From a virus, in IMG/VR virus record IMGVR_UViG_3300030331_005883, positions 1 through 28,232 of that record: a DNA stretch of 28,232 nt; one strand, 5' to 3'. Below are positions 1,610-24,509 of the stretch, in pieces. The number at the start of each line of letters is the position of its first letter. Position 1 is the first letter of the stretch. Made by a program: the position numbers and the translations under genes. Below the pieces are notes generated by a model. That model was given only the letters and a program-made list of their open reading frames with translations, made no database searches and was not told where the DNA came from.

Positions 1610-1617
1610 TATTTATA
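1610..1617 (-). promoter_or_regulatory. TATAAATA late promoter for the left-edge fibre gene
   Basis: The minus strand reads TATAAATA, identical to the T4 late promoter consensus recognised through the gp55/gp33/gp45 system. It overlaps the stop of the 648-residue fibre gene (TAA at 1613-1615) and lies 29 bases before the next ATG, leaving room for a leader of about 20 bases. Confidence 0.65.
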
Positions 1618-3559
1618 CTTCAGTTAGACTGATTTTATATTTCTTACCTGTGACATTATTCAGTATGAATATATTCTCATCTCCCTCTTGAAGTGTCCAA
1701 CTCCCAGATGTACCATCAACATCATTGACTCTCTGACCTAGATTTGAAAAATGCATGTCGTTAGCGTATATATCAGATCCATATATTGAATTAAATTTAT
1801 ATGTGCTTGAGCCTAAATTTCTAATTCCATTTACATCTGGTGTGATATTTCCTTTCAATGATACATTTGTGACAGTGACGCTTGGGTCACCTGTCAAACC
1901 AGTTGAAGGACCGTTGAACGCTGCAGCAGTAAGGGTATTTGTTGATGGGTTATACTTAAGATCAGAATCAGTTCTAAGTGTCTCCCCACTTCCACCAGCA
2001 GTGTCAACAAAAGTAACGAAGTGATCAGCAGCTGTGGTCTCTGTAGCTGTTATGTCTATGGTTGATGTGGTTACGTTAGTCAGAGCAGAACCATCTAACA
2101 CTGGTAAAGCACCAGATAAATTGCTTGATGCAACAGTGCCTGTGAATGATGTTGCTGACAATTCACCTGTTGATGCATTAAATGTCAAGGCAGTATTTGA
2201 CTTTATCTCTTGATTACCTGTGGAATTGCCTGCAAATAAAATGTGTGTAGATGTATCTGAGTTATCTGATGCAACATTCACTTGTGTAGCAGGACCTATA
2301 AGTGACCCTACAAATGATGTATAAGTTGCTGTGGTACCACTGACATTTGTCATGGTATTATTACCTGTAGAGGTAACATTACCTGTAATATTTCCAGTGA
2401 ACGTACCTGCTATTGCACCAGTCCCAGTGATGGTAGGTGATGTTAGTGTTTTGTTGGTAAGTGTCTGTGTGCCAGTGTCAGAAACGAGTGTTGCGTCAGC
2501 ATTACCAATAATTGAACCACCAGGCAATGTCAATGTATTTGATGCAGCAACACTATGATCAGCAGCAGTAATTATCTGACCATGAGAATTCACGTGACAA
2601 TTAAGTTGTATTTTTCCTTCTTCTGATGAATCATCTCCACGAATCTCAATGATTGAAGTGGCAGATTCAATTATTACGTTTCCAGAGGATGAAATTACTG
2701 TACCTGTCAGGTTACCAGTGACATTTCCTGTTACATCTCCTGTCAAAGGACCTGTGACATTTCCAGTCAAATTACCAGTGACATTACCAGTGACATTACC
2801 AGTGACATTACCAGTAACATTACCTGTGACATTTCCTGTTAAGTTTCCATCAAATATTGGTGCTGATGCAATACCACTGACATTCAAATGCTCAACATAA
2901 AAAGGTGAATCGGGGGATAGTGATGCTATACCAACGCTAGGTTCACTAACTGTTAGACCTACCCCAAGTCTAATAATGTTTATATCATTGAGTAATTCAA
3001 AACCTTGTGCATCTTGAAACTTTATTTTTGAATCTGCAATGGAAAATATTGATGTAATACCTGATGCGGATTGACCAACAGGCAACTCCATTACCGATAA
3101 ACCTGCTCCCACTCTTACCGTAGTTACTCCAGTGCTTACAGTAAACTCATTTGCATCTGAAAAATCTAATGTATTCTTGTTTATGGTAACTGTAGAAACA
3201 CCAATTTCTATCGTACCCCCAACACCAATACTCTTTTTTGTTTCTGTTACTACTACACCATTACCTTCAAAGTTCACTGTAGTAGTGGATCCACCAAAAC
3301 CGACGGGAGTAATACCTTGATCTTGTACTGTAATACCAAACGCTGAACCACCACCACTACCACCTACGGGTGGTGCTGCCCAGAATCTTTCTCCATTTGT
3401 ATTACCATATAATATAAACTCATTATCGGTTGGTAGACCTAAACTAGGTTCTGCCTCTTCCAGACCAAGAAAGGACGGGAATCCATTTGTTTGATTTCTA
3501 AATGTTGATAAACCAGCATAACTGGTTACACCAACCTTGCCTGAAAGTAGTCTTCCCAT
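1613..3559 (-). CDS. Tail-fibre-like structural protein with NVTG repeat (648 aa)
   Basis: A long Ser/Thr/Gly/Asn-rich protein with no enzyme motif. Residues 1-70 form a short unique head (MGRLLSGKVGVTSYAGLSTF). Residues 75-225 repeat a pattern of the type GVTTVRVGAGLSV. Residues 239-286 are twelve tandem copies of N-x-T-G, mostly NVTG. The C-terminal part has the stretch NGIRNLGSSTYKFNSIYGSD and ends in GSWTLQEGDENIFILNNVTG and KKYKISLTEV, endings I associate with marine T4-like phage fibre and virion proteins. The ATG overlaps the stop of the upstream 112-residue gene as TAATG, and a GGAG lies 11 bases before it, so the two are probably translated together. Role inferred: fibre or appendage subunit, with the repeat as a thin shaft. 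Which T4 fibre it corresponds to cannot be told. Confidence 0.75.
   Translation of the reverse strand: MGRLLSGKVGVTSYAGLSTFRNQTNGFPSFLGLEEAEPSLGLPTDNEFILYGNTNGERFWAAPPVGGSGGGSAFGITVQDQGITPVGFGGSTTTVNFEGNGVVVTETKKSIGVGGTIEIGVSTVTINKNTLDFSDANEFTVSTGVTTVRVGAGLSVMELPVGQSASGITSIFSIADSKIKFQDAQGFELLNDINIIRLGVGLTVSEPSVGIASLSPDSPFYVEHLNVSGIASAPIFDGNLTGNVTGNVTGNVTGNVTGNVTGNLTGNVTGPLTGDVTGNVTGNLTGTVISSSGNVIIESATSIIEIRGDDSSEEGKIQLNCHVNSHGQIITAADHSVAASNTLTLPGGSIIGNADATLVSDTGTQTLTNKTLTSPTITGTGAIAGTFTGNITGNVTSTGNNTMTNVSGTTATYTSFVGSLIGPATQVNVASDNSDTSTHILFAGNSTGNQEIKSNTALTFNASTGELSATSFTGTVASSNLSGALPVLDGSALTNVTTSTIDITATETTAADHFVTFVDTAGGSGETLRTDSDLKYNPSTNTLTAAAFNGPSTGLTGDPSVTVTNVSLKGNITPDVNGIRNLGSSTYKFNSIYGSDIYANDMHFSNLGQRVNDVDGTSGSWTLQEGDENIFILNNVTGKKYKISLTEV
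2702..2845 (-). repeat. 12-bp tandem repeat coding (NxTG)12
   Basis: Twelve consecutive 12-base units encode NLTG, NVTG (x5), NLTG, NVTG, PLTG, DVTG, NVTG, NLTG. Several central units are identical at the base level (ATTACCAGTGAC on the plus strand, about 2771-2810). This is a coding microrepeat and is likely to vary in copy number by slippage. Confidence 0.9.
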
Positions 3560-15464: not shown

Positions 15465-17494
15465 TAATAAAATCTAGGACAACTAATGATAGTAATAATT
15501 TGTGCATCAGGAACAATTGGATCAGAATACACTTCACGTTTTACAAATCTTACTATTGGATTTACCCTTGCACCCACACCAGTTTCTGACTCAACCACAA
15601 GTGGAGGTATGGTGGATAAACCTTGATCTATTTTACCACTGGCACCAATTATTCTACCATTTTCAATGATAGGTGTCAAAATTTGACCACTATCACTAAC
15701 TATTGTATCACCTTCTTTGTAACCTGCACCAGTTGACACCACATCTACACCAACTACCTCACCTATAACTTCAAATCCCTCAGTATCAGAAATTCCATCA
15801 CCTGACAGATAATTGGATCCACCATTTGTGATGATTATATTGACAACTTTTTCATCCTCTACAATAGCAGTTGCAGTAGCTCCCCTTCCTATATCACAAT
15901 CATCGACTATGGATACGAATGGAGGTTCGGTGTATCCTAAACCTGTGTCTTGCATTCTTACACCTATCACCTCACCGATCTCATTTACAACTGCATCTGC
16001 TGCTGCACCCAATCCACCTCCACCAAAAATTACTACTCTAGGTGGAAAACACTTTTTAGATCCAGTGCTACACCCATCCACAAGACCAGCTAAAGGTGAT
16101 CCTCCACTCGGTGATCCAATAGTTGTACCTATACCCACATTTGGAAATGTCATGTTTACTAAATCATCAGCGATATTTTTTACTGTGCTTAGTTTTGATA
16201 CTTTATCTAATATACTATCTAATTTTACAACATTTTTTGGTGTAGGACCTACGTTTATCATAAAATCCTCTTTAGGAGGACATTTCGGATTTGTGCAAGA
16301 AAATAATGCAATACCAGCATTTAATTTACCCAGTGCTCCTGATAACATGCTTGATACATTAGGCATTGCTGCACCAGTTATACCACTTAGACCACCTAAA
16401 ATAGGTCCTATTGCAGATTGTATGTTAGACATCACGCCAGAAATCAACCCACCTAAAAATTGTTCTGCAGCACAGAGTGGGACATTTATCAATTTTCCAA
16501 GCAATTCTTTGAGGAATTTTCCAACAAAACTCTTGAGTCCATTCAATATATTCTCCATAGCACACAAGAAACCCTCTTTCAATTCATTTGCTGCTATACT
16601 TTCAGCTAAAAAAGTAGGAGATAAAAAGTTTAATCTTTTATCAATTATTTTATTAATTTTTTCAAACGCCTCATATCTTACACCTCTTATCACACCCGAC
16701 ATTGCACCAGATATTTCAGTTGATGCCTTATCAATTAGATCATCTATGTCTACTGTCTTTCCAAGCATAGGATCAATGTACCCACCTGAAAATTTCTCAA
16801 GTTTACTTATTATATCAAATAAATTTTTCATTGTCTTTGTAACTTTACCCATCTTTTCCTTGTCATCCTCACATTCACCAGATGATAAAGTTATCTCTCT
16901 TCTTTGATTGTCTAATTCTTTTTGAATAGTTTTTACTAATTTTTTCTTATCATTCGTTGCATATCCACTACTATTAGAGACATTCCCACTTGTTTTTACT
17001 ACTTCTCCAAATGCTATGGCAGTTGCATCTGCATTGTTGATAAGTGTGTCTGCAGATAAAGCACCGAAACCAGTTGTCCCTTTTTTAAGTGCTTCTTTAT
17101 ATGAAACTATGTCATTGATATTGTAGTTTGCATAAAATGCACCTATTACTACTGGTTGTTGTGCTTCTTCTCCGTCAAGAAAAAACCCAATAACCATCTC
17201 ACCACCCTGTAAAGCAAACGATGTGCCCGTATTATTATTACCTGCACCGAATTGAGGTGCAACTAAAAAGTGTGCCCATGGTAAATTTTCATCAGAAATA
17301 CCCCCCTCTTTCTCATTTTCATGAGGGTGGTATCCCAATATTCTTATCTTTGCTCTGAAACCATTCTCAAAGTTTTGATCATTTCCAAAATCATTTTCAG
17401 TTCTCCACACGCTATCGGGAGCAACTTGTGCTATGAACCATTGAAAACCATCTTTACCAATGAATGATATATCAGTGTGTCTTGTTTCAAGCAT
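15464..17494 (-). CDS. 5: gp5-like baseplate hub/central spike protein with OB fold, no lysozyme domain (676 aa)
   Basis: Residues about 13-122 resemble the gp5/VgrG N-terminal OB fold: FRAKIRILGYHPHENEKEGG, then LPWAHFLVAPQFGAG, then GGEMVIGFFLDGEEAQQPVV with IGAFY. In T4 this domain sits on the gp27 trimer. Residues 170-330 are helical and charged; 330-400 are Gly/Ala/Leu-rich. A Cys-containing stretch follows (FSCTNPKCPPKED). Residues about 513-620 carry repeats of the type DTGLGYTEPPFVSIV, NGGSNYLSG and STGAGYKEGDTIV. I see no T4-type lysozyme domain, so cell-wall cutting must come from elsewhere or be absent. It starts as TAATG with the upstream 75-residue gene. Called hub because of the OB fold and its place two genes after the gp27-like gene. 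Confidence 0.7.
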   Translation of the reverse strand: MLETRHTDISFIGKDGFQWFIAQVAPDSVWRTENDFGNDQNFENGFRAKIRILGYHPHENEKEGGISDENLPWAHFLVAPQFGAGNNNTGTSFALQGGEMVIGFFLDGEEAQQPVVIGAFYANYNINDIVSYKEALKKGTTGFGALSADTLINNADATAIAFGEVVKTSGNVSNSSGYATNDKKKLVKTIQKELDNQRREITLSSGECEDDKEKMGKVTKTMKNLFDIISKLEKFSGGYIDPMLGKTVDIDDLIDKASTEISGAMSGVIRGVRYEAFEKINKIIDKRLNFLSPTFLAESIAANELKEGFLCAMENILNGLKSFVGKFLKELLGKLINVPLCAAEQFLGGLISGVMSNIQSAIGPILGGLSGITGAAMPNVSSMLSGALGKLNAGIALFSCTNPKCPPKEDFMINVGPTPKNVVKLDSILDKVSKLSTVKNIADDLVNMTFPNVGIGTTIGSPSGGSPLAGLVDGCSTGSKKCFPPRVVIFGGGGLGAAADAVVNEIGEVIGVRMQDTGLGYTEPPFVSIVDDCDIGRGATATAIVEDEKVVNIIITNGGSNYLSGDGISDTEGFEVIGEVVGVDVVSTGAGYKEGDTIVSDSGQILTPIIENGRIIGASGKIDQGLSTIPPLVVESETGVGARVNPIVRFVKREVYSDPIVPDAQIITIISCPRFY

Positions 17495-17721
17495 TAGTCG
17501 TCATACATCAAGCACTCAGGTTCGTCTGGATGCATATCACAAAATAATTCTAAAGCATTTGGATCATGATGATCACCTGCTTCAATTTCGTCATGATGAT
17601 GATCAACATACTCTTCAAGTTCATGTAACTCGTCAAGTGTGTGTCTCCTCATTGGTTCTGAGGTTTTTGGATCAGCAAGAAGTTCTTTGTCGTGCTGAAT
17701 GTGATCTTCGATTGTTTTCAT
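17494..17721 (-). CDS. Small acidic His-rich protein, function unknown (75 aa)
   Basis: The product is very acidic and rich in His. It has EEYVDHHHDEIEAGDHHDPN around residues 36-55, then ELFCDMHPDEPECLMYDD at the C-terminus with two Cys. The first half is a charged amphipathic helix. The His, Asp and Cys arrangement looks able to bind a metal, but no named motif is present. It is set between the gp27-like and gp5-like hub genes, one base after the former and overlapping the latter as TAATG, so it should be made together with the hub. I recall similar small proteins from marine T4-like phages without a function. It may be a hub assembly factor or a small hub part. Confidence 0.6.
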   Translation of the reverse strand: MKTIEDHIQHDKELLADPKTSEPMRRHTLDELHELEEYVDHHHDEIEAGDHHDPNALELFCDMHPDEPECLMYDD

Positions 17722-17722
17722 T

Positions 17723-19009
17723 TTACTCGTGTATGGTAAATGAATCTCTTACGAGAGTGAGTCCAGTAAAATCCCCATCTGGATTACCTAATTCATGAGA
17801 TAATCTTGCAATCATGTAAATGCCACTTTCAGGTGAGTTTTTTGCTATACTCCTGTCAGTATTTAGGTTAGGAAATTTGAGGTTTATTAATCTTCCTACT
17901 CTAAGTGAAAGATTCATTGGTATTGTAATATCAAGCGACTGTGAGAATAAAGAGGAGTATCTAGCAGCAGATTGTGCTTGAAGTCTTGCTTGATCTTGAG
18001 GTGCGTCTGTGCCTGTCCCACCTGCACTTACTGATGTTGTGCCAGTATCTATTACACCCAAAATAATTCTAGAGGGTGGGTTTTTATACTTCAGTGGAGT
18101 TACATCCTCATCATTCGCTTTTTCAACATTCTGATTATACTTAAAATTATTAAATTCTACATCTCTTGTAATAAGATTGAAATACCAATTATTTGAACTG
18201 TATGAACCCAATCTAAGTTTCTTTATAATATCATGACTTTCTCTAAAACTAGGGTCACTTGCTAACATAAAATTATTTTTTGGATCTAAACCAGATTTGA
18301 AAGGAGTCATCTCATACGTAAATACTTCATAATCCTCTGATTTTTGTTTAGGGTTTTTATGTGGTACTTGTTGATTGAATATTTTATCAATACTTCTAAA
18401 ATTATATCCATCAAGTGTTTCATAAAATAAAAATCCAGCAGAACCTGTTGTCGCTGATCCTATACCTACAGTTTCAGGTATTGATTTACGACATAAATCT
18501 GCGATGCATTTGAAAGGTCTTCTATAATTACCAAAAAACCTACACTCATTTGTAGATTTATCAAATTCAAATAATTTTTTATCAATAATTTCTAATATTT
18601 TTTCTACAGATTGATGAATTTGATTATCATACCTTTTTGTAACTCTTGTAGTATGATTAGAAAGAGCACCATCCCTTTCACATGTGAGTGTGTATATTTC
18701 TTTTTTACTGTTTATCGTGTGTCCTGTAATGTTTGTTATAACTAAATCCAATTCAACCTCTCCCTTTTGACTTGGATGCTCATATCTTAATTTCACACCT
18801 GATCCACTTCTAACAGGTAATTTATTAATAATACCCATTGCGTCCAATACACTTATGTCAACGTGTATTGACGGATCTAAAATATCCTCATAATACTTGA
18901 CATATGATAATTGGGCTCCTAACTCTAAAAAATCTCCACCCCTATCATCAGGAAATACTTTGAATTCCTTTATAACATGACCTTTTGTCCAAATTTTGTT
19001 TTTGTTCAT
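17723..19009 (-). CDS. 27: gp27-like baseplate hub protein (428 aa)
   Basis: Residues about 27-150 match the tail-hub (gp27/VgrG N-terminal) pattern: LSYVKYYEDILDPSIHVDIS, then GIINKLPVRSGSGVKLRYEH, then ELDLVITNITGHTINSKKEI, then RVTKRYDNQIHQSVEKILEI. This forms the ring that T4 gp27 provides between the tail tube and gp5. The C-terminal third (ITIPMNLSLRVGRLINLKFP, then SPESGIYMIARLSHEL) looks like a second hub barrel. Its length is near that of T4 gp27 (391). The ATG overlaps the upstream tape-measure-like gene by four bases (ATGA). Family call from pattern and position; sequence similarity to T4 itself is low. Confidence 0.7.
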   Translation of the reverse strand: MNKNKIWTKGHVIKEFKVFPDDRGGDFLELGAQLSYVKYYEDILDPSIHVDISVLDAMGIINKLPVRSGSGVKLRYEHPSQKGEVELDLVITNITGHTINSKKEIYTLTCERDGALSNHTTRVTKRYDNQIHQSVEKILEIIDKKLFEFDKSTNECRFFGNYRRPFKCIADLCRKSIPETVGIGSATTGSAGFLFYETLDGYNFRSIDKIFNQQVPHKNPKQKSEDYEVFTYEMTPFKSGLDPKNNFMLASDPSFRESHDIIKKLRLGSYSSNNWYFNLITRDVEFNNFKYNQNVEKANDEDVTPLKYKNPPSRIILGVIDTGTTSVSAGGTGTDAPQDQARLQAQSAARYSSLFSQSLDITIPMNLSLRVGRLINLKFPNLNTDRSIAKNSPESGIYMIARLSHELGNPDGDFTGLTLVRDSFTIHE

Positions 19010-20769
19010 GCCGTTAGTGTAAGATCAAACATTAAGTTTGCAGCAACTGCGTCAAATGGGTTTGTCATTACTATCGTGCCACCACCATCTACATTTATAA
19101 CAGGTGGAGGAGTGGTTTGTTGATTATCATTTTTATTGCCACCCAATAAGAATATGTTACCCGTAGATGCTTGAGCAATATTGGTGCTATCTTGTGGTTC
19201 TATATTTTGACTCAATAAATCAGATGACAACGGAGATTTTTTCAATCTTGGTATAATTTTCAATAATTCATCAAGAGATTTCGTTTCATCTTTTGTAAAA
19301 TCAGGTGTAATTTTAGTATTCTTACCCCCACTCATTCGTTTTAATCTTTTTTCAATCACTCTTAAGAGTTTATCTGCTGTTTCCATTTGTTTTGGAGATA
19401 GTAATCCTTTTTCTTTGAATCCTTGTATTACATCAAAAACCATATCTGTATTTTTCTTGATTGCTTGCAAAGATGTGCCCTCTAAACCTTCTTGATCTTT
19501 TATAAATTTTCTCAATAATTTAACTGAACCCTGTATATCTGATTTTTGTCTGAATAATTTACCAAAATCCTTGAATAATGCTTCAGCATCTTCAGATTTT
19601 TGTGCCTTTTTATTTAATTCTTTTATCTGTTCAATAATTTTTTTGAAATCTACTCTCTCTTTTATTATGTTAGTTGTCTTTTTAATTTTTGCTGGTGCTC
19701 CTTTCTGACCAGGTATTACAGTGCCTCTTTTAGTCAAAAAGGGAGACTTACTTATTCTTTCAATTAATTTTTGTTTTGAGATATCTTTTTTCAGTATTGA
19801 TAGTTGTTTTTCGAGTGGTAATTTTTGAAATGATATTGGTTTTTTCTTCACCAATACAAGTATTTTTTGATAGGTTTTTGCATTAATATTACCTTTTCTA
19901 AATTGAAATGCTGCAAGTGCTATCAAACCTGAAGCAGCAAGCACTCTTGCTGTTTTTTTGACAGCAGGTCTTTGGAAAAATGGCACTGGTGGTCGAGGTC
20001 TACGTCTTCGTGCACCCACAACCTCTTCATCATCGTCACGTCGTAAAACTAATAAGGGTGCTGCATCTTCAAATTTATCCAGTGCTTTGTCAAAATCATC
20101 TAATGCTTCTGAAAACAATGTTTTTTGGGATCTTAATAAAACTCTTTCCTCCTCGAATTGTCTACGTCTATTGGCACCTGTAAACAAATCTGCTATTCTA
20201 CCACCCGCTAAACTTCCTATAATTGCTCCACCTGCACCACCTACGATGGTGCCCACAGGTCCTGCGAAAGACCCAAAAAAAGCACCTGCTTTAGCACCTG
20301 CAAGCGAACCTGCTAAACCACCTGCAGCACCCACACCTGCCTGCACATTTGATTGACCCTCTGCACGTCTACCTACAAAATCAAGTCCAGTTCCCACTGC
20401 AGCAAGAGGTCTTGCAAATCTACCAAATCTACCAACCCTAGATAAATTAGATGTGCCTTTTTGCATTCTTAGAAGTTGACTTGGAGACTTTGGTGTTCTT
20501 CTCAATCCCCTTCTAAGTAAACCCCCTCCACCACCGAGACCAAGTAATCCAAGTGCACCGCCTAATACGCCTCCTTTTTGTGTCCCTTTATCTCTTGACT
20601 CTAAGTTTTTTAGTGTACGACCTCTTTCTTCTACGATTTTTCTTTTAAGAACAAGAGATCTTTTTTCTAAATTTCTTTCAATTCTATTACTTTCTAATAA
20701 ACTTCTACTTAAAAAGATTGATGATCTTGATAAAGCACCAGAAATATTTCTAATTTTTTGTTCTATCAT
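19006..20769 (-). CDS. Tape-measure-like tail protein, gp29-like (587 aa)
   Basis: The first 60 residues are basic and helical (coiled-coil-like). Residues 66-92 and about 141-196 are Gly/Ala-rich hydrophobic stretches (GGVLGGALGLLGLGGGGG; AGAFFGSFAGPVGTIVGGAG), a usual feature of tape-measure proteins that enter the host membrane. A basic Pro/Arg patch (GARRRRPRPPVPFF) and a further hydrophobic span (ARVLAASGLIALAAFQF) follow. Residues about 290-520 are Lys-rich helix. The end is beta-like (VINVDGGGTIVMTN). The 587-residue length is close to T4 gp29 (590), the tape measure and hub protein, and the place just before the gp27-like gene fits. It overlaps both neighbours by four bases. Since a second similar protein precedes it, which one sets tail length is open. 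Confidence 0.5.
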   Translation of the reverse strand: MIEQKIRNISGALSRSSIFLSRSLLESNRIERNLEKRSLVLKRKIVEERGRTLKNLESRDKGTQKGGVLGGALGLLGLGGGGGLLRRGLRRTPKSPSQLLRMQKGTSNLSRVGRFGRFARPLAAVGTGLDFVGRRAEGQSNVQAGVGAAGGLAGSLAGAKAGAFFGSFAGPVGTIVGGAGGAIIGSLAGGRIADLFTGANRRRQFEEERVLLRSQKTLFSEALDDFDKALDKFEDAAPLLVLRRDDDEEVVGARRRRPRPPVPFFQRPAVKKTARVLAASGLIALAAFQFRKGNINAKTYQKILVLVKKKPISFQKLPLEKQLSILKKDISKQKLIERISKSPFLTKRGTVIPGQKGAPAKIKKTTNIIKERVDFKKIIEQIKELNKKAQKSEDAEALFKDFGKLFRQKSDIQGSVKLLRKFIKDQEGLEGTSLQAIKKNTDMVFDVIQGFKEKGLLSPKQMETADKLLRVIEKRLKRMSGGKNTKITPDFTKDETKSLDELLKIIPRLKKSPLSSDLLSQNIEPQDSTNIAQASTGNIFLLGGNKNDNQQTTPPPVINVDGGGTIVMTNPFDAVAANLMFDLTLTA

Positions 20770-22142
20770 GCTAATCCCATCCCTGCTCCTAATGCGTTAG
20801 CACTTACAAATTTATCAATAGCACCACCACTACTTGTAAATTTAGTTCCCACGCTTACAAATGTTGGAGTCGCAGTCAAAGCTGAGAATCCTGAAGAATT
20901 AGATTGTGAATCTTCTTGACTTAAATCGACTATCATATCATTTACTCCTTGCTCACTTGCATTTCGATCATTTTCATTTTTTGTAAAATTATTATTAATG
21001 AAATCAAAACTTAAATTACCCAAATTTGAAAAATTATTGATAAAATTTGAACCTATATCACCAAATGCCACATTTTGTGATTGATTATTATTCATAATAA
21101 ATTCACTTCCACTAAATGAATTGTCAATCATTGAGAGATCATCATTTTCTGTTTTATTTTTATTAAACATATTAAAGAACTTATCAATAAACTTTCTTGT
21201 TTCAAACCCTGCTCTTACATCAAATGGCATTTCATCTATTTTTCTTACCTCACCAGTTGCAGTATTTTCTGCAAAATCAGACGGATTTAAATCAGGATTA
21301 TTAATTACTTCATCTCTAGTGAGCACATCTCCTTCATTGTTTTTGTCATCTTCATCTAATTCATCTGTAATATCTTCATCAATGACACCTTTACCCTTTC
21401 TTTTTCTTTCTAAAGAGATATTGGATAATATACTATCAAATCGTGCTATTACTACCCTAAATCTATCAACATCAGGTTTGTTTATTGTTTCTGCACCTCT
21501 GATAGTTCTAGTAGCACTTAATTGTCTTCTTCTATCGGCAGTTTGATTAGAGTTTATGAGACCAGGTAATATCAATGATGCAGCGAGTGCAGCAGTGATG
21601 AGCAGAGGATTTCTAAGTTTTGATGCACCTGCAACTCTTGTACCCAAGGTGCCTGCACCTGCACCTCTACCTAAAAGACCACTTTTTACAAGTCTTGTTG
21701 TAACAACTGTAGATATAACACCAAGAATCTCAGGTGTAAGCAATGCAGCAGCACCTCCGATACCTGCAGCACCCTCACCTATATTTCCTTGTAATATTTG
21801 AGATATACCTACTGCACCAAGTGCCCCTGCTGCTAACTGTCTTCCCAAACCGCTATTTACATTTTGAAGATTTCTCGAATCCTTTTCTAAAATTTTCTTC
21901 TCTTCTGCATAATATCTTTTTTTAGCTGCAATATCTTGTCTTATCAAATCCTCCATTGTATCCATACTGCTATTCACTGTCTGGAATTGACTTAAGATTC
22001 TACCAAACATCCTCCGTTGAGGTCTTTCTATCTCTACTACATCCTCTTCAACCTTAGATAACCTTTCAAATATGGTATTTACCCTACGATTGATGGCAAT
22101 CATGGGTGTCAATGATTCTACTCGTCTACCAGGTGTTTGCAT
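20766..22142 (-). CDS. Tape-measure-like or hub-associated tail protein (458 aa)
   Basis: The architecture parallels the next gene. A charged helical N-terminus with coiled-coil character occupies about residues 15-95 (NTIFERLSKVEEDVVEIERP and onward). Gly/Ala-rich hydrophobic segments lie at about 102-150 (LAAGALGAVGISQILQGNIG) and about 175-195 (NPLLITAALAASLILPGLI). Then comes an acidic stretch (DEDITDELDEDDKNNEGD), an Asn/Phe-rich linker, and a Ser/Gly-rich tail. No enzyme motif is seen. The ATG lies 17 bases inside the 65-residue gene, with no clear ribosome binding site, so translation is likely coupled. It sits where the tape measure follows the tail assembly chaperone in many phages. 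It could be one half of a divided tape measure or a hub scaffold. Confidence 0.45.
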   Translation of the reverse strand: MQTPGRRVESLTPMIAINRRVNTIFERLSKVEEDVVEIERPQRRMFGRILSQFQTVNSSMDTMEDLIRQDIAAKKRYYAEEKKILEKDSRNLQNVNSGLGRQLAAGALGAVGISQILQGNIGEGAAGIGGAAALLTPEILGVISTVVTTRLVKSGLLGRGAGAGTLGTRVAGASKLRNPLLITAALAASLILPGLINSNQTADRRRQLSATRTIRGAETINKPDVDRFRVVIARFDSILSNISLERKRKGKGVIDEDITDELDEDDKNNEGDVLTRDEVINNPDLNPSDFAENTATGEVRKIDEMPFDVRAGFETRKFIDKFFNMFNKNKTENDDLSMIDNSFSGSEFIMNNNQSQNVAFGDIGSNFINNFSNLGNLSFDFINNNFTKNENDRNASEQGVNDMIVDLSQEDSQSNSSGFSALTATPTFVSVGTKFTSSGGAIDKFVSANALGAGMGLA

Positions 22143-22323
22143 TAGCTGCTTGTTTTTGCTGTGCTTCTAACTTTTGTTTCTCAAGGTATTTCACCAAGTA
22201 ATTCACATAAACATCTCTTTCCCATGGCATCATTGCCTCTATATCACTTAGTGACCACTTATGATGTTGCATAAGTGAGAAATTAGTTTCCAACATTGCA
22301 TCAATGCTGGTGTGATATAGCAT
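22126..22323 (-). CDS. Small tail/hub assembly chaperone-like ORF, perhaps expressed as a gp26 frameshift extension (65 aa)
   Basis: The 65-residue product has KWSLSDIEAMMPWERDVYVN around residues 22-41 followed by a helix (YLVKYLEKQKLEAQQKQ). The pattern (W-S-x-x-x-I-x-x-M-x-x-W-E-R-x-x-Y) is common in small phage proteins placed between a chaperone and a tape measure, including the T part of G/GT proteins. T4 gp51 is a possible counterpart, but I cannot confirm that. Its ATG overlaps the gp26 stop as TAATG and has no Shine-Dalgarno sequence. A slippery heptamer just before the gp26 stop puts this frame in reach by a -1 slip. Both free product and fusion are possible. Confidence 0.6.
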   Translation of the reverse strand: MLYHTSIDAMLETNFSLMQHHKWSLSDIEAMMPWERDVYVNYLVKYLEKQKLEAQQKQAANANTW

Positions 22324-23048
22324 TATACGAAAAAACTTGACAAACCCTCAATTACAACTTCAGAATCTTTTTTAGTTTTGGGGTTGTGCACACTCCCTTT
22401 GTATTGTAATTTAGGCATAGTTGCAAAGAATTCTTCAATAAGTGAAAATTGTTTAGAATTCAATTGCTCAACAAATTTTGTCAACTCTTTTTTTGTACAA
22501 TCACCTGCTGACCACGCTTCATCAATAGTAAAAATCGTGTCTATACAATCAATTACAGTATCAAATGCCTTATCAATTCTTTCATCACTTTCAAGGGCGG
22601 TGCCTGTAAAATTATTATCCAAAAATTGTTGCATTGATGGATACTTCATCTTAATTGTGATATCATCATTAATTTTGATCATGTCAGTGTGACCATCAGG
22701 TACATCTAAATTGATCTCAGACAATTGAATGGTAAGAGGAACTTTAGTTTCATTGTCATCTTGACATGTTACTAAAAGATCTACAGACTCACCAATTGAT
22801 TTACCTCTTATATTCAAAAACAAATACTCTAATTCAAAACTAGGAAGTTTTTCAACATCAACACCACGTGTAACTATACAGGATTTCAATACACTTTTTA
22901 GTGTGGCACTGATATTTGCATCATTTCCACTCTCAAGAGCAATAAGTAAAACTTTTTCCTCTTTTACAAGAAAAGGTCTATATTTTACTTTTTTACCTGT
23001 AATAAGTTGCAATTCAAATGTAGGTGCAACGACCTTGGGTAAAGGCAT
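22323..23048 (-). CDS. 26: Baseplate hub assembly protein gp26 (241 aa)
   Basis: The N-terminus (MPLPKVVAPTFELQLITGKK, then VKYRPFLVKEEKVLLIALES) is characteristic of the T4 gp26 family of hub proteins. A helical middle, a beta segment (VPLTIQLSEINLDVP, then ITIKMKYPSMQQFLD) and a C-terminal helix pair (KKELTKFVEQLNSKQFSLIE) follow. T4 gp26 (208 residues) acts in hub assembly. Here the product is 241 residues and ends EVVIEGLSSFFV. Position first in the hub operon, behind a CTAAATA late promoter and before the tape-measure-like genes, fits a tail assembly chaperone. No good ribosome binding site is seen before the ATG. The end of the gene contains the slippery T TTT TTC described separately. 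Confidence 0.8.
   Translation of the reverse strand: MPLPKVVAPTFELQLITGKKVKYRPFLVKEEKVLLIALESGNDANISATLKSVLKSCIVTRGVDVEKLPSFELEYLFLNIRGKSIGESVDLLVTCQDDNETKVPLTIQLSEINLDVPDGHTDMIKINDDITIKMKYPSMQQFLDNNFTGTALESDERIDKAFDTVIDCIDTIFTIDEAWSAGDCTKKELTKFVEQLNSKQFSLIEEFFATMPKLQYKGSVHNPKTKKDSEVVIEGLSSFFV
22329..22335 (-). other. Candidate -1 ribosomal frameshift site T TTT TTC
   Basis: In the gp26 frame the last codons are AGT TTT TTC GTA TAA. The heptamer T TTT TTC fits X XXY YYZ. A -1 slip there continues as CGT ATA ATG into the 65-residue frame with no stop, giving a 307-residue fusion. None of the other TAATG junctions in the window carries such a heptamer. Confidence 0.5.
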
Positions 23049-23092: not shown

Positions 23093-24046
23093 TTAGAAAC
23101 CTTGCCTTACAAATTCATTTTGAGTGTCAAGAATTTGCTCTCTGGTGAATGGTTCTGATTTTCGTAATTTTTTCTTTGATAATTTTTTATTCTTTTTGGT
23201 TTTTATATTCTTATTACTACTTTGACTTTCATTTTCTTTTACTTTTGCATCTGGATTTCTTACATTTTCTGGCGTTGCATCTGATTCTGCATAGACTGCA
23301 CCTTTTCTTGCTGCTCTTTGAGTGAAATATTGCTCATAATTGAAAGTTATGGTGGTTTTTATGAGCTCTGCTCTTCCATATGCTAATGGTGCAGCAACTA
23401 TGCTAGTGGGGAAGGCATTCATGATATGATATGTAATAGCACTAGGTAGTTGTAAATTAAATCTGCTAGTTTTATTCAATTTATTAAAATCATCAGTTGT
23501 ATCTTTACTAAAAGCGGTTATCTCTATATTACACTTATATGTCTTTGGATACTGCATTCTCCTAAATGCTGCACCTGCTGAATGATTTATTCTTTCTTCT
23601 GTGCTCGTACCAAAAGTGCCATCATCAATTCTAGTTGGTGATATAAATTCCATCCAAGCGTTGAATACTTCGTTTGTGTAGTAATCAGTTTGTGAATAAA
23701 ATGTAAGTATGACATCAGGAAATCTTCTAAATGTGGCATAGTTTTGTGACAAACCCTGTCTAAGACCATCTACTTTACCTGATTGTATGTCTGAACCTGG
23801 TAATACTGCCTCAGAGCAAAATAGTGCAAGATACTCGCCAGGATTGAACGTGCCACCATTTTGATCAAAAAAACCATGTTGGTTTATAAATTGCCTTAGT
23901 CTGTCGTTTCCAGCAAAATTTATCAATACATCGTAATTATTATTCAACGCAGGTGTGATATTACCAAACTTTGTCGTTGGATCAGTTAGATTTACTGTTG
24001 GTAAGTAAAATCTACCAGATCTAAACGCATCTGCCCTCTGTGCCAT
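23093..24046 (-). CDS. 54: gp54-like baseplate tail-tube initiator (317 aa)
   Basis: The 317-residue length matches T4 gp54 (320), which caps the baseplate hub and nucleates the tail tube. Visible features are an N-terminal region (AQRADAFRSGRFYLPTVN), a tube-like beta core (YLALFCSEAVLPGSDIQ, PDVILTFYSQTDYYTNEVFN, then CNIEITAFSKD) and TTITFNYEQYFTQRAA. Spacing and order suggest the gp19-like tube fold that gp54 shares with the tube protein. The C-terminal 45 residues are an unusual Lys-rich tail (NKNIKTKKNKKLSKKKLRKS). It is divergent from gp4 across 28 bases. No late promoter of either form is seen on the minus strand before it. It could instead be another tube-fold protein, since gp48, gp54 and gp19 are related. 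Confidence 0.65.
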   Translation of the reverse strand: MAQRADAFRSGRFYLPTVNLTDPTTKFGNITPALNNNYDVLINFAGNDRLRQFINQHGFFDQNGGTFNPGEYLALFCSEAVLPGSDIQSGKVDGLRQGLSQNYATFRRFPDVILTFYSQTDYYTNEVFNAWMEFISPTRIDDGTFGTSTEERINHSAGAAFRRMQYPKTYKCNIEITAFSKDTTDDFNKLNKTSRFNLQLPSAITYHIMNAFPTSIVAAPLAYGRAELIKTTITFNYEQYFTQRAARKGAVYAESDATPENVRNPDAKVKENESQSSNKNIKTKKNKKLSKKKLRKSEPFTREQILDTQNEFVRQGF

Positions 24047-24074: not shown

Positions 24075-24509
24075 ATGTCATATAAAGGGAAATACAGACC
24101 TAAAAACCGTCAAAAGTATAAAGGCGACGTGGGAGAAGTCGTATATAGGTCACTGTGGGAATTGAAATTCATGAAATACTGTGACACCAATAATAAAATA
24201 TTGAAGTGGTCATCTGAAGAAATAATAATACCTTACAAATCACCTGTTGACAATAGAGTGCATAGGTATTTTCCCGATTTTTATGTCAAGTACAAGGATG
24301 TTAAAGGAAAGATAAGAGAAAAAGTTGTTGAAATTAAACCTGCAAAACAAGTCAAAGAACCAAAGATGCAAAAAAGAAGAACAAAAAAATATGTGTCAGA
24401 GGTTTACACTTATGCTACAAATCAAGCAAAGTGGGCAGCAGCAGAAAATTTCTGCAAGGATAGAAGGTGGGAATTTCAGATATTGACGGAGAAAGAACTT
24501 GGAATATAA
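24075..24509 (+). CDS. 4: Head completion protein gp4, nuclease-like (144 aa)
   Basis: The product starts MSYKGKYRPKNRQKYKGDVG and keeps the features of the T4 gp4 family of head completion proteins. It has a PD-(D/E)xK nuclease-like core: Glu29 in SLWELKFMKYC, Asp68 in YFPDFYV, and Glu86 and Lys88 in VVEIKP, followed by a basic region. In T4, gp4 acts late in head maturation so that tails can join. The putative catalytic residues are all present, so activity on DNA is possible. No ribosome binding site is seen; a second ATG four bases earlier is out of frame. First gene of the plus-strand operon, overlapping the next frame. Confidence 0.8.
   Translation: MSYKGKYRPKNRQKYKGDVGEVVYRSLWELKFMKYCDTNNKILKWSSEEIIIPYKSPVDNRVHRYFPDFYVKYKDVKGKIREKVVEIKPAKQVKEPKMQKRRTKKYVSEVYTYATNQAKWAAAENFCKDRRWEFQILTEKELGI

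Follow-up and report, generated by a model that had tools for sequence, protein, structure and literature searches.

Comparative evidence for a probable programmed -1 frameshift linking gene 26 to a gp51 domain in uncultivated marine T4-like phages

Xu, Hendrix and Duda reportedly showed in 2004 that the -1 frameshift of tail-assembly-chaperone genes is conserved in long-tailed phages. A 2016 review names T4 as the exception to the wide conservation of this G-T frameshift in long-tailed phages (PMC5009743). Tail-assembly chaperones of T4-like phages were identified by Vladimirov, Gautam and Davidson (Virology 2022), a study represented here by its title and by two papers that cite it. According to the PRFect paper it concerns T4-like phages that, rather than frameshifting, carry one short gene and one long fused gene (PMC10885494), and a 2025 paper cites it for poly-T slippery sequences known in T4-like TAC-N genes (PMC12846349). 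As portrayed in these citing papers, the chaperones form the same short/long pair as the one analyzed here, whereas the title puts the emphasis on a route without frameshifting, which agrees with T4 itself and not with the window (the whole 28,232-nt stretch of viral DNA under analysis). The first-pass annotation of the window knew of no such site described for T4-like phages; to the extent that the citing papers convey it, a literature on their chaperones and poly-T sites does exist (PMC10885494, PMC12846349), and this earlier work limits the novelty of the present findings. The same strategy was deduced, from the same kind of comparison, for the chaperone locus of Vandenendeviridae and Andersonviridae, which are likewise myoviruses but belong to other phage families and have the stated motif GTTTTT (PMC12846349). 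What is added here is the scale of the conservation, the relatives in which the extension ORF has no start codon, and gp51 as the extension domain in the marine group.

Comparison with related sequences lends strong support to programmed -1 frameshifting at the 3' end of gene 26 in the window, and we put at roughly 0.93 the probability that gene 26 and the 65-residue ORF that follows it form a single tail-assembly-chaperone locus expressed in this way. The locus would place abundant uncultivated marine T4-like phages together with lambda and P2 in how the chaperones are produced.

The gene 26-gp51 junction

The 3' end of gene 26 (minus strand) reads GAG GGT TTG TCA AGT TTT TTC GTA TAA TG, so that a single sense codon (GTA) separates the heptamer T TTT TTC from the stop (Table 1). 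A -1 slip at 22335-22329 would change the reading to TTT TTT CGT ATA ATG, and this frame is open to 22126, giving a predicted fusion of 240 + 2 + 65 = 307 aa. Both the perfect in-frame slippery heptamer and the stop-free reading into a 307-residue product had been proposed by the first-pass annotation, and recomputation returned the same site and the same length. In searches of PHROG profiles the 65-residue ORF matches the family "baseplate hub assembly catalyst" (gp51) and, at E 0.016, more weakly the final 40 positions of phrog_150. The weaker match is what would be expected if some gp26-family proteins end in this domain, as T4 gp51 does. The window thus holds both traits of the T4 gp26/gp51 family, the T4_baseplate domain and the gp51 C-terminal domain.

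Table 1. Features of the gene 26-gp51 locus in window coordinates
Feature	Coordinates	Strand	Basis
Tail-tube-like protein, upstream of gene 26	23093..24046	-	PF23849 Phage_TTP_2 E 4.8e-14; phrog_45 E 3.9e-22
Gene 26, putative short tail-assembly-chaperone isoform (TAC-N, gpG-like), 241 aa	22323..23048	-	PF12322 T4_baseplate E 2.8e-65; phrog_150 E 1.3e-70
GAGG, Shine-Dalgarno-like, candidate stimulator	22346..22349	-	10 nt upstream of the heptamer; stimulator role inferred
Slippery heptamer T TTT TTC, in frame	22329..22335	-	Sequence; invariant in 79/79 readable close relatives
TAATG, in which the gp26 stop overlaps the start codon (ATG) of the 65-aa ORF; candidate re-initiation site as a rival or additional route	22321..22325	-	78/78 scored clade loci
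gp51 C-terminal domain ORF, 65 aa, -1-frame extension of gp26 (gpT-like)	22126..22323	-	phrog_634 E 3.4e-23
Predicted gp26-gp51 fusion (TAC-NC, gpGT-like), 307 aa	22126..23048	-	Open -1 frame; homology to full-length T4 gp51
458-aa ORF, overlapping the end of the gp51 ORF	20766..22142	-	No convincing Pfam or PHROG match
587-aa tape-measure-like protein	19006..20769	-	phrog_794 tape measure E 4e-11

The resemblance to lambda gpG/gpGT extends to a short ORF lying between the tail tube and tape measure genes, a -1 heptamer near the stop of this ORF, an extension ORF that in many relatives has no start of its own, and short and long isoforms with a common N-terminus, here predicted. Differences are the heptamer itself, G GGA AAG in lambda versus T TTT TTC in the window, and the protein family, T4_baseplate (PF12322), for which neither sequence nor fold comparison gave a significant match to known lambda-type chaperones. 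Comparison of gp26 with solved structures by sequence gave no match, and a fold search with a gp26 model gave no significant match; its top 20 hits include the HK97 chaperone 2ob9 (E 0.6) and B. subtilis YqbN 3klu (E 3.8), neither of which is significant, so that a shared fold is no more than hinted at. The gene order tail tube-26-51-tape measure is that of lambda-type loci, with the 458-aa ORF intervening before the tape measure. The earlier analogy to lambda G/GT agrees with this order and with the domain logic, and the accompanying claim that tape-measure-like genes lie downstream holds for the second of the two ORFs (587 aa) and not for the adjoining 458-aa ORF, for which 50,697 phage records contain no relative.

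Most ribosomes would terminate at the TAA to yield gp26, the short isoform, while a fraction would slip by -1 on T TTT TTC, with tRNA-Phe re-pairing from TTT/TTC to TTT/TTT, and continue to yield the 307-aa long isoform. If lambda gpG/gpGT is a guide to function, the N-terminal domain common to both isoforms would coat the tape-measure protein, the C-terminal domain found in the 307-aa isoform would recruit tail-tube subunits, and neither isoform would need to remain in the virion. The slippage event, its efficiency, its stimulation by GAGG and these protein contacts are what we infer for the locus.

Conservation of the slippery heptamer

Among 8,811 codons of window genes, in-frame T TTT TTC occurs once, at the end of gp26, and gp26 is the only window gene with any of the scanned slippery heptamer classes ≤12 codons from its end. 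In the first 236 related loci the heptamer is present at 232 gp26 ends, with T TTT TTT at one more, although among the 558 other Phe-Phe dipeptides of these loci TTT TTC is the least used of the spellings (23/558); where other Phe-Phe dipeptides are preceded by a pyrimidine, the combination of a preceding T with TTT TTC is found in 9 of 204. Wider scans gave in-frame T TTT TTC or T TTT TTT in 258/278 sequences, the window included. These counts are of related sequences and not of independent events, the control for kinship being the other columns of the same alignments.

By that control the site stands out. The two Phe codons of the heptamer have zero synonymous diversity in 80 close and in 125 cyanophage-like sequences. 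Most other gp26 codons vary synonymously among the close relatives, and in the cyanophage-like set the two Phe codons are the only zero-diversity columns of the 207 scored (median 0.46), a second Phe-Phe pair inside gp26 being synonymously variable. The codon before the Phe pair is AAT, AGT, TCT, GAT, GCT or GGT (N, S, D, A, G), its final T being invariant despite the changing amino acid. The slip site is thus conserved beyond amino-acid need, as judged from both synonymous diversity and codon spelling. Conservation above synonymous expectation was the prediction attached to the proposed frameshift, and loss of the T-run in close relatives keeping both genes had been named as the observation that would count against it; all 79 readable close relatives retain the heptamer.

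An invariant T-run might equally be looked for if RNA polymerase, rather than the ribosome, slipped on it. However, in T TTT TTC the run is exactly six T, the flanking base before it is never T and the one after it is C, and a single codon phase (X XXY YYZ) is held, which RNA polymerase does not require. Runs of six T slip poorly in bacterial RNA polymerase, and we consider transcriptional slippage scarcely credible as the explanation of this site.

The region upstream of the heptamer contains a candidate stimulator of ribosomal slippage. The Glu codon of the GAG GGN motif (22344-22349, minus strand) is GAG in 80/80 close sequences, compared with ~32% GAG elsewhere. GAA is the common Glu codon, and yet GAG is invariant at this position in the clade, suggesting a possible internal Shine-Dalgarno stimulator. 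The spacing between GAGG and the heptamer is close to that which stimulates -1 frameshifting in E. coli dnaX, and GAGG may act on slippage from 10 nt upstream. The motif as such was discarded as proof of a stimulator because Glu-Gly codons impose a purine-rich match whatever their spelling (synonymous expectation 1.0), leaving the preference for GAG over GAA as the only feature that exceeds background. As for the downstream stem-loop that had been suggested as a further stimulator, the window sequence folded singly can form a hairpin of 9 bp at a distance of 18 nt past the heptamer (z -1.9). Across 25 aligned close relatives this hairpin is not retained, the consensus energy being -1.1 kcal/mol and no base pair having changed on both sides, and 26 cyanophage-like sequences yielded no structure.

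Start codons and re-initiation

The -1 frame gives an uninterrupted extension of 56-69 aa in 251/251 loci not cut by a contig end, and past the gp26 stop it varies in a codon-like manner, with the third position the most variable. In 37 loci there is no ATG, GTG or TTG ahead of the conserved core, and in 23 more only GTG or TTG is present; in the 37 start-less loci separate initiation cannot make the product of the -1 ORF. Most clades other than that of the window have no TAATG at the gp26 stop. The cyanophage-like set has none, 17 of its 124 members having no ATG at all before the core, and every scored locus of two more distant scans is without an ATG before the core.

These data bear on termination-reinitiation at TAATG, which the first-pass annotation had named as the competing explanation. 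Taken alone, re-initiation would yield a separate 65-aa protein and reduce the T-run to a chance spelling of Phe-Phe. Its attraction is that all 78 loci scored in the window's clade have TAATG, and that a Shine-Dalgarno motif seems not to be needed there, gp26 itself having none. The invariant TTT TTC codons and the invariant T before them are nevertheless left unexplained, T4 makes the gp51 C-terminal domain only within a long protein, and this explanation fails for the relatives with no ATG, GTG or TTG before the core. We therefore regard re-initiation alone as very improbable. The lack of a ribosome binding site before the 65-residue ORF, noted earlier, is real but uninformative, since the start of gp26 is also without a Shine-Dalgarno motif (0/80 in the window's clade), and it was dropped as evidence for frameshifting. 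Energy-based scoring of Shine-Dalgarno sequences at the starts was likewise uninformative, the gp26 control also scoring poorly.

A compatible variant of the frameshift explanation is that both routes operate in the window's clade, with gp26, the fusion and a free gp51 domain initiated at TAATG all being made. The ATG overlaps the stop in all 78 scored clade loci, so that re-initiation is possible there, and heptamer and TAATG are each invariant in the clade. However, the linker is conserved in any case, and the invariant ATG thus need not be a start, and TAATG is missing from most other clades. We hold this dual use to be conceivable but rather unlikely, the slip on T TTT TTC remaining the favored source of the gp51 domain with or without it.

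Distribution among phages and the two-gene arrangement of T4

The arrangement of gp26 followed by a -1 ORF is found in the Kyanoviridae isolates S-SM2, P-SSM2, ACG-2014d and S-CRM01, in the cyanophages Sf-FR1 and MED4-213, and in Straboviridae outside the T4 group (Cronobacter S13 and Aeromonas Aeh1). It extends to Vibrio D486, Stenotrophomonas YB07 and Pseudomonas Astolliot, to Sinorhizobium phiN3 (site T TTT TTT), to Rhizobium IC12 and RHph_I46 (T TTT TTG in place of the usual spelling), to the marine AG-345-E15 and to many uncultivated contigs; in the Vibrio, Rhizobium, Stenotrophomonas and Pseudomonas phages the site is T TTT TT(C/T/G). As read from these sequences, the slip site, with its apparent gp26 fusion, appears to be fixed in the window phage and, the T4 group itself aside, in nearly all of its relatives. 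Ackermannviridae have the non-canonical A/G ATT TTC and yet keep the -1 ORF, as do Vibrio K357 and VPALA with CTT TTC and no canonical heptamer, and the -1 ORFs of all these phages share a related core, MPWHL or TPWHF. At the Ackermannviridae junction there is no ATG in Salmonella-type phages and a TAATG in Dickeya-like ones. None of the isolate records examined that have the -1 arrangement annotates a joined gene, and the gp51 domain is unannotated in the records of ACG-2014d, S13, Aeh1, Marshall and VPALA. Sullivan et al. (2010) described cyanophage gp51 as lacking its first ~200 residues and Aeh1 as lacking gp51 (PMC3037559); the truncated appearance of the former and the missing gp51 of the latter arise because the domain sits in the -1 frame.

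Among the hub assembly chaperones listed for T4 are gp26 and gp51, the latter being required but absent from the particle (PMC3004832). They are homologous to the short and long proteins predicted here and share the C-terminal domain: T4 gp26 (208 aa) consists of the T4_baseplate domain alone, and gp51 (249 aa) of the T4_baseplate domain plus the C-terminal domain that in the window lies in the -1 frame. Since T4 carries the full-length fused gene 51, a gp26-gp51 fusion is a natural protein. In contrast to the window, T4 has two separate full genes, which are divergently transcribed, with no slippery site at the end of either gene 26 or gene 51. Phage 44RR is alike, while in EC-F2 the long gene comes first and the short gene after it is probably gp26. 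Judging by gene structure, T4-type phages encode the short and long forms as two genes and the predicted frameshift phages encode them in one overlapping locus. In a gp26/gp51 tree the T4-type short and long domains fall apart from all frameshift lineages with support of 96/98, although long branches mean that this split does not fix the timing of the duplication. A broader scenario, in which T TTT TTC frameshifting is the widespread state of the tail-assembly chaperones of the T4 superfamily, T4 26/51 is a derived duplication that took its place, and the window's clade makes three products with GAGG as stimulator, is speculative and, taken whole, unlikely. The locus offers a test of how duplicated genes replace a frameshift pair, as in T4.

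Several other ORFs of the window were noted alongside the locus. A 75-aa ORF with abundant His, Asp and Glu residues (17494-17721, minus strand) immediately precedes a 676-aa ORF that weakly matches gp5-OB, and a 648-aa ORF (1613-3559, minus strand) with a run of GNVTGNVTGN repeats is probably a fibre-like protein. On the plus strand, a 144-aa ORF (24075-24509) with a TnsA-like endonuclease N-terminal domain (PF08722, E 5.5e-24) lies in a region where cyanophages carry the head-completion gp4.
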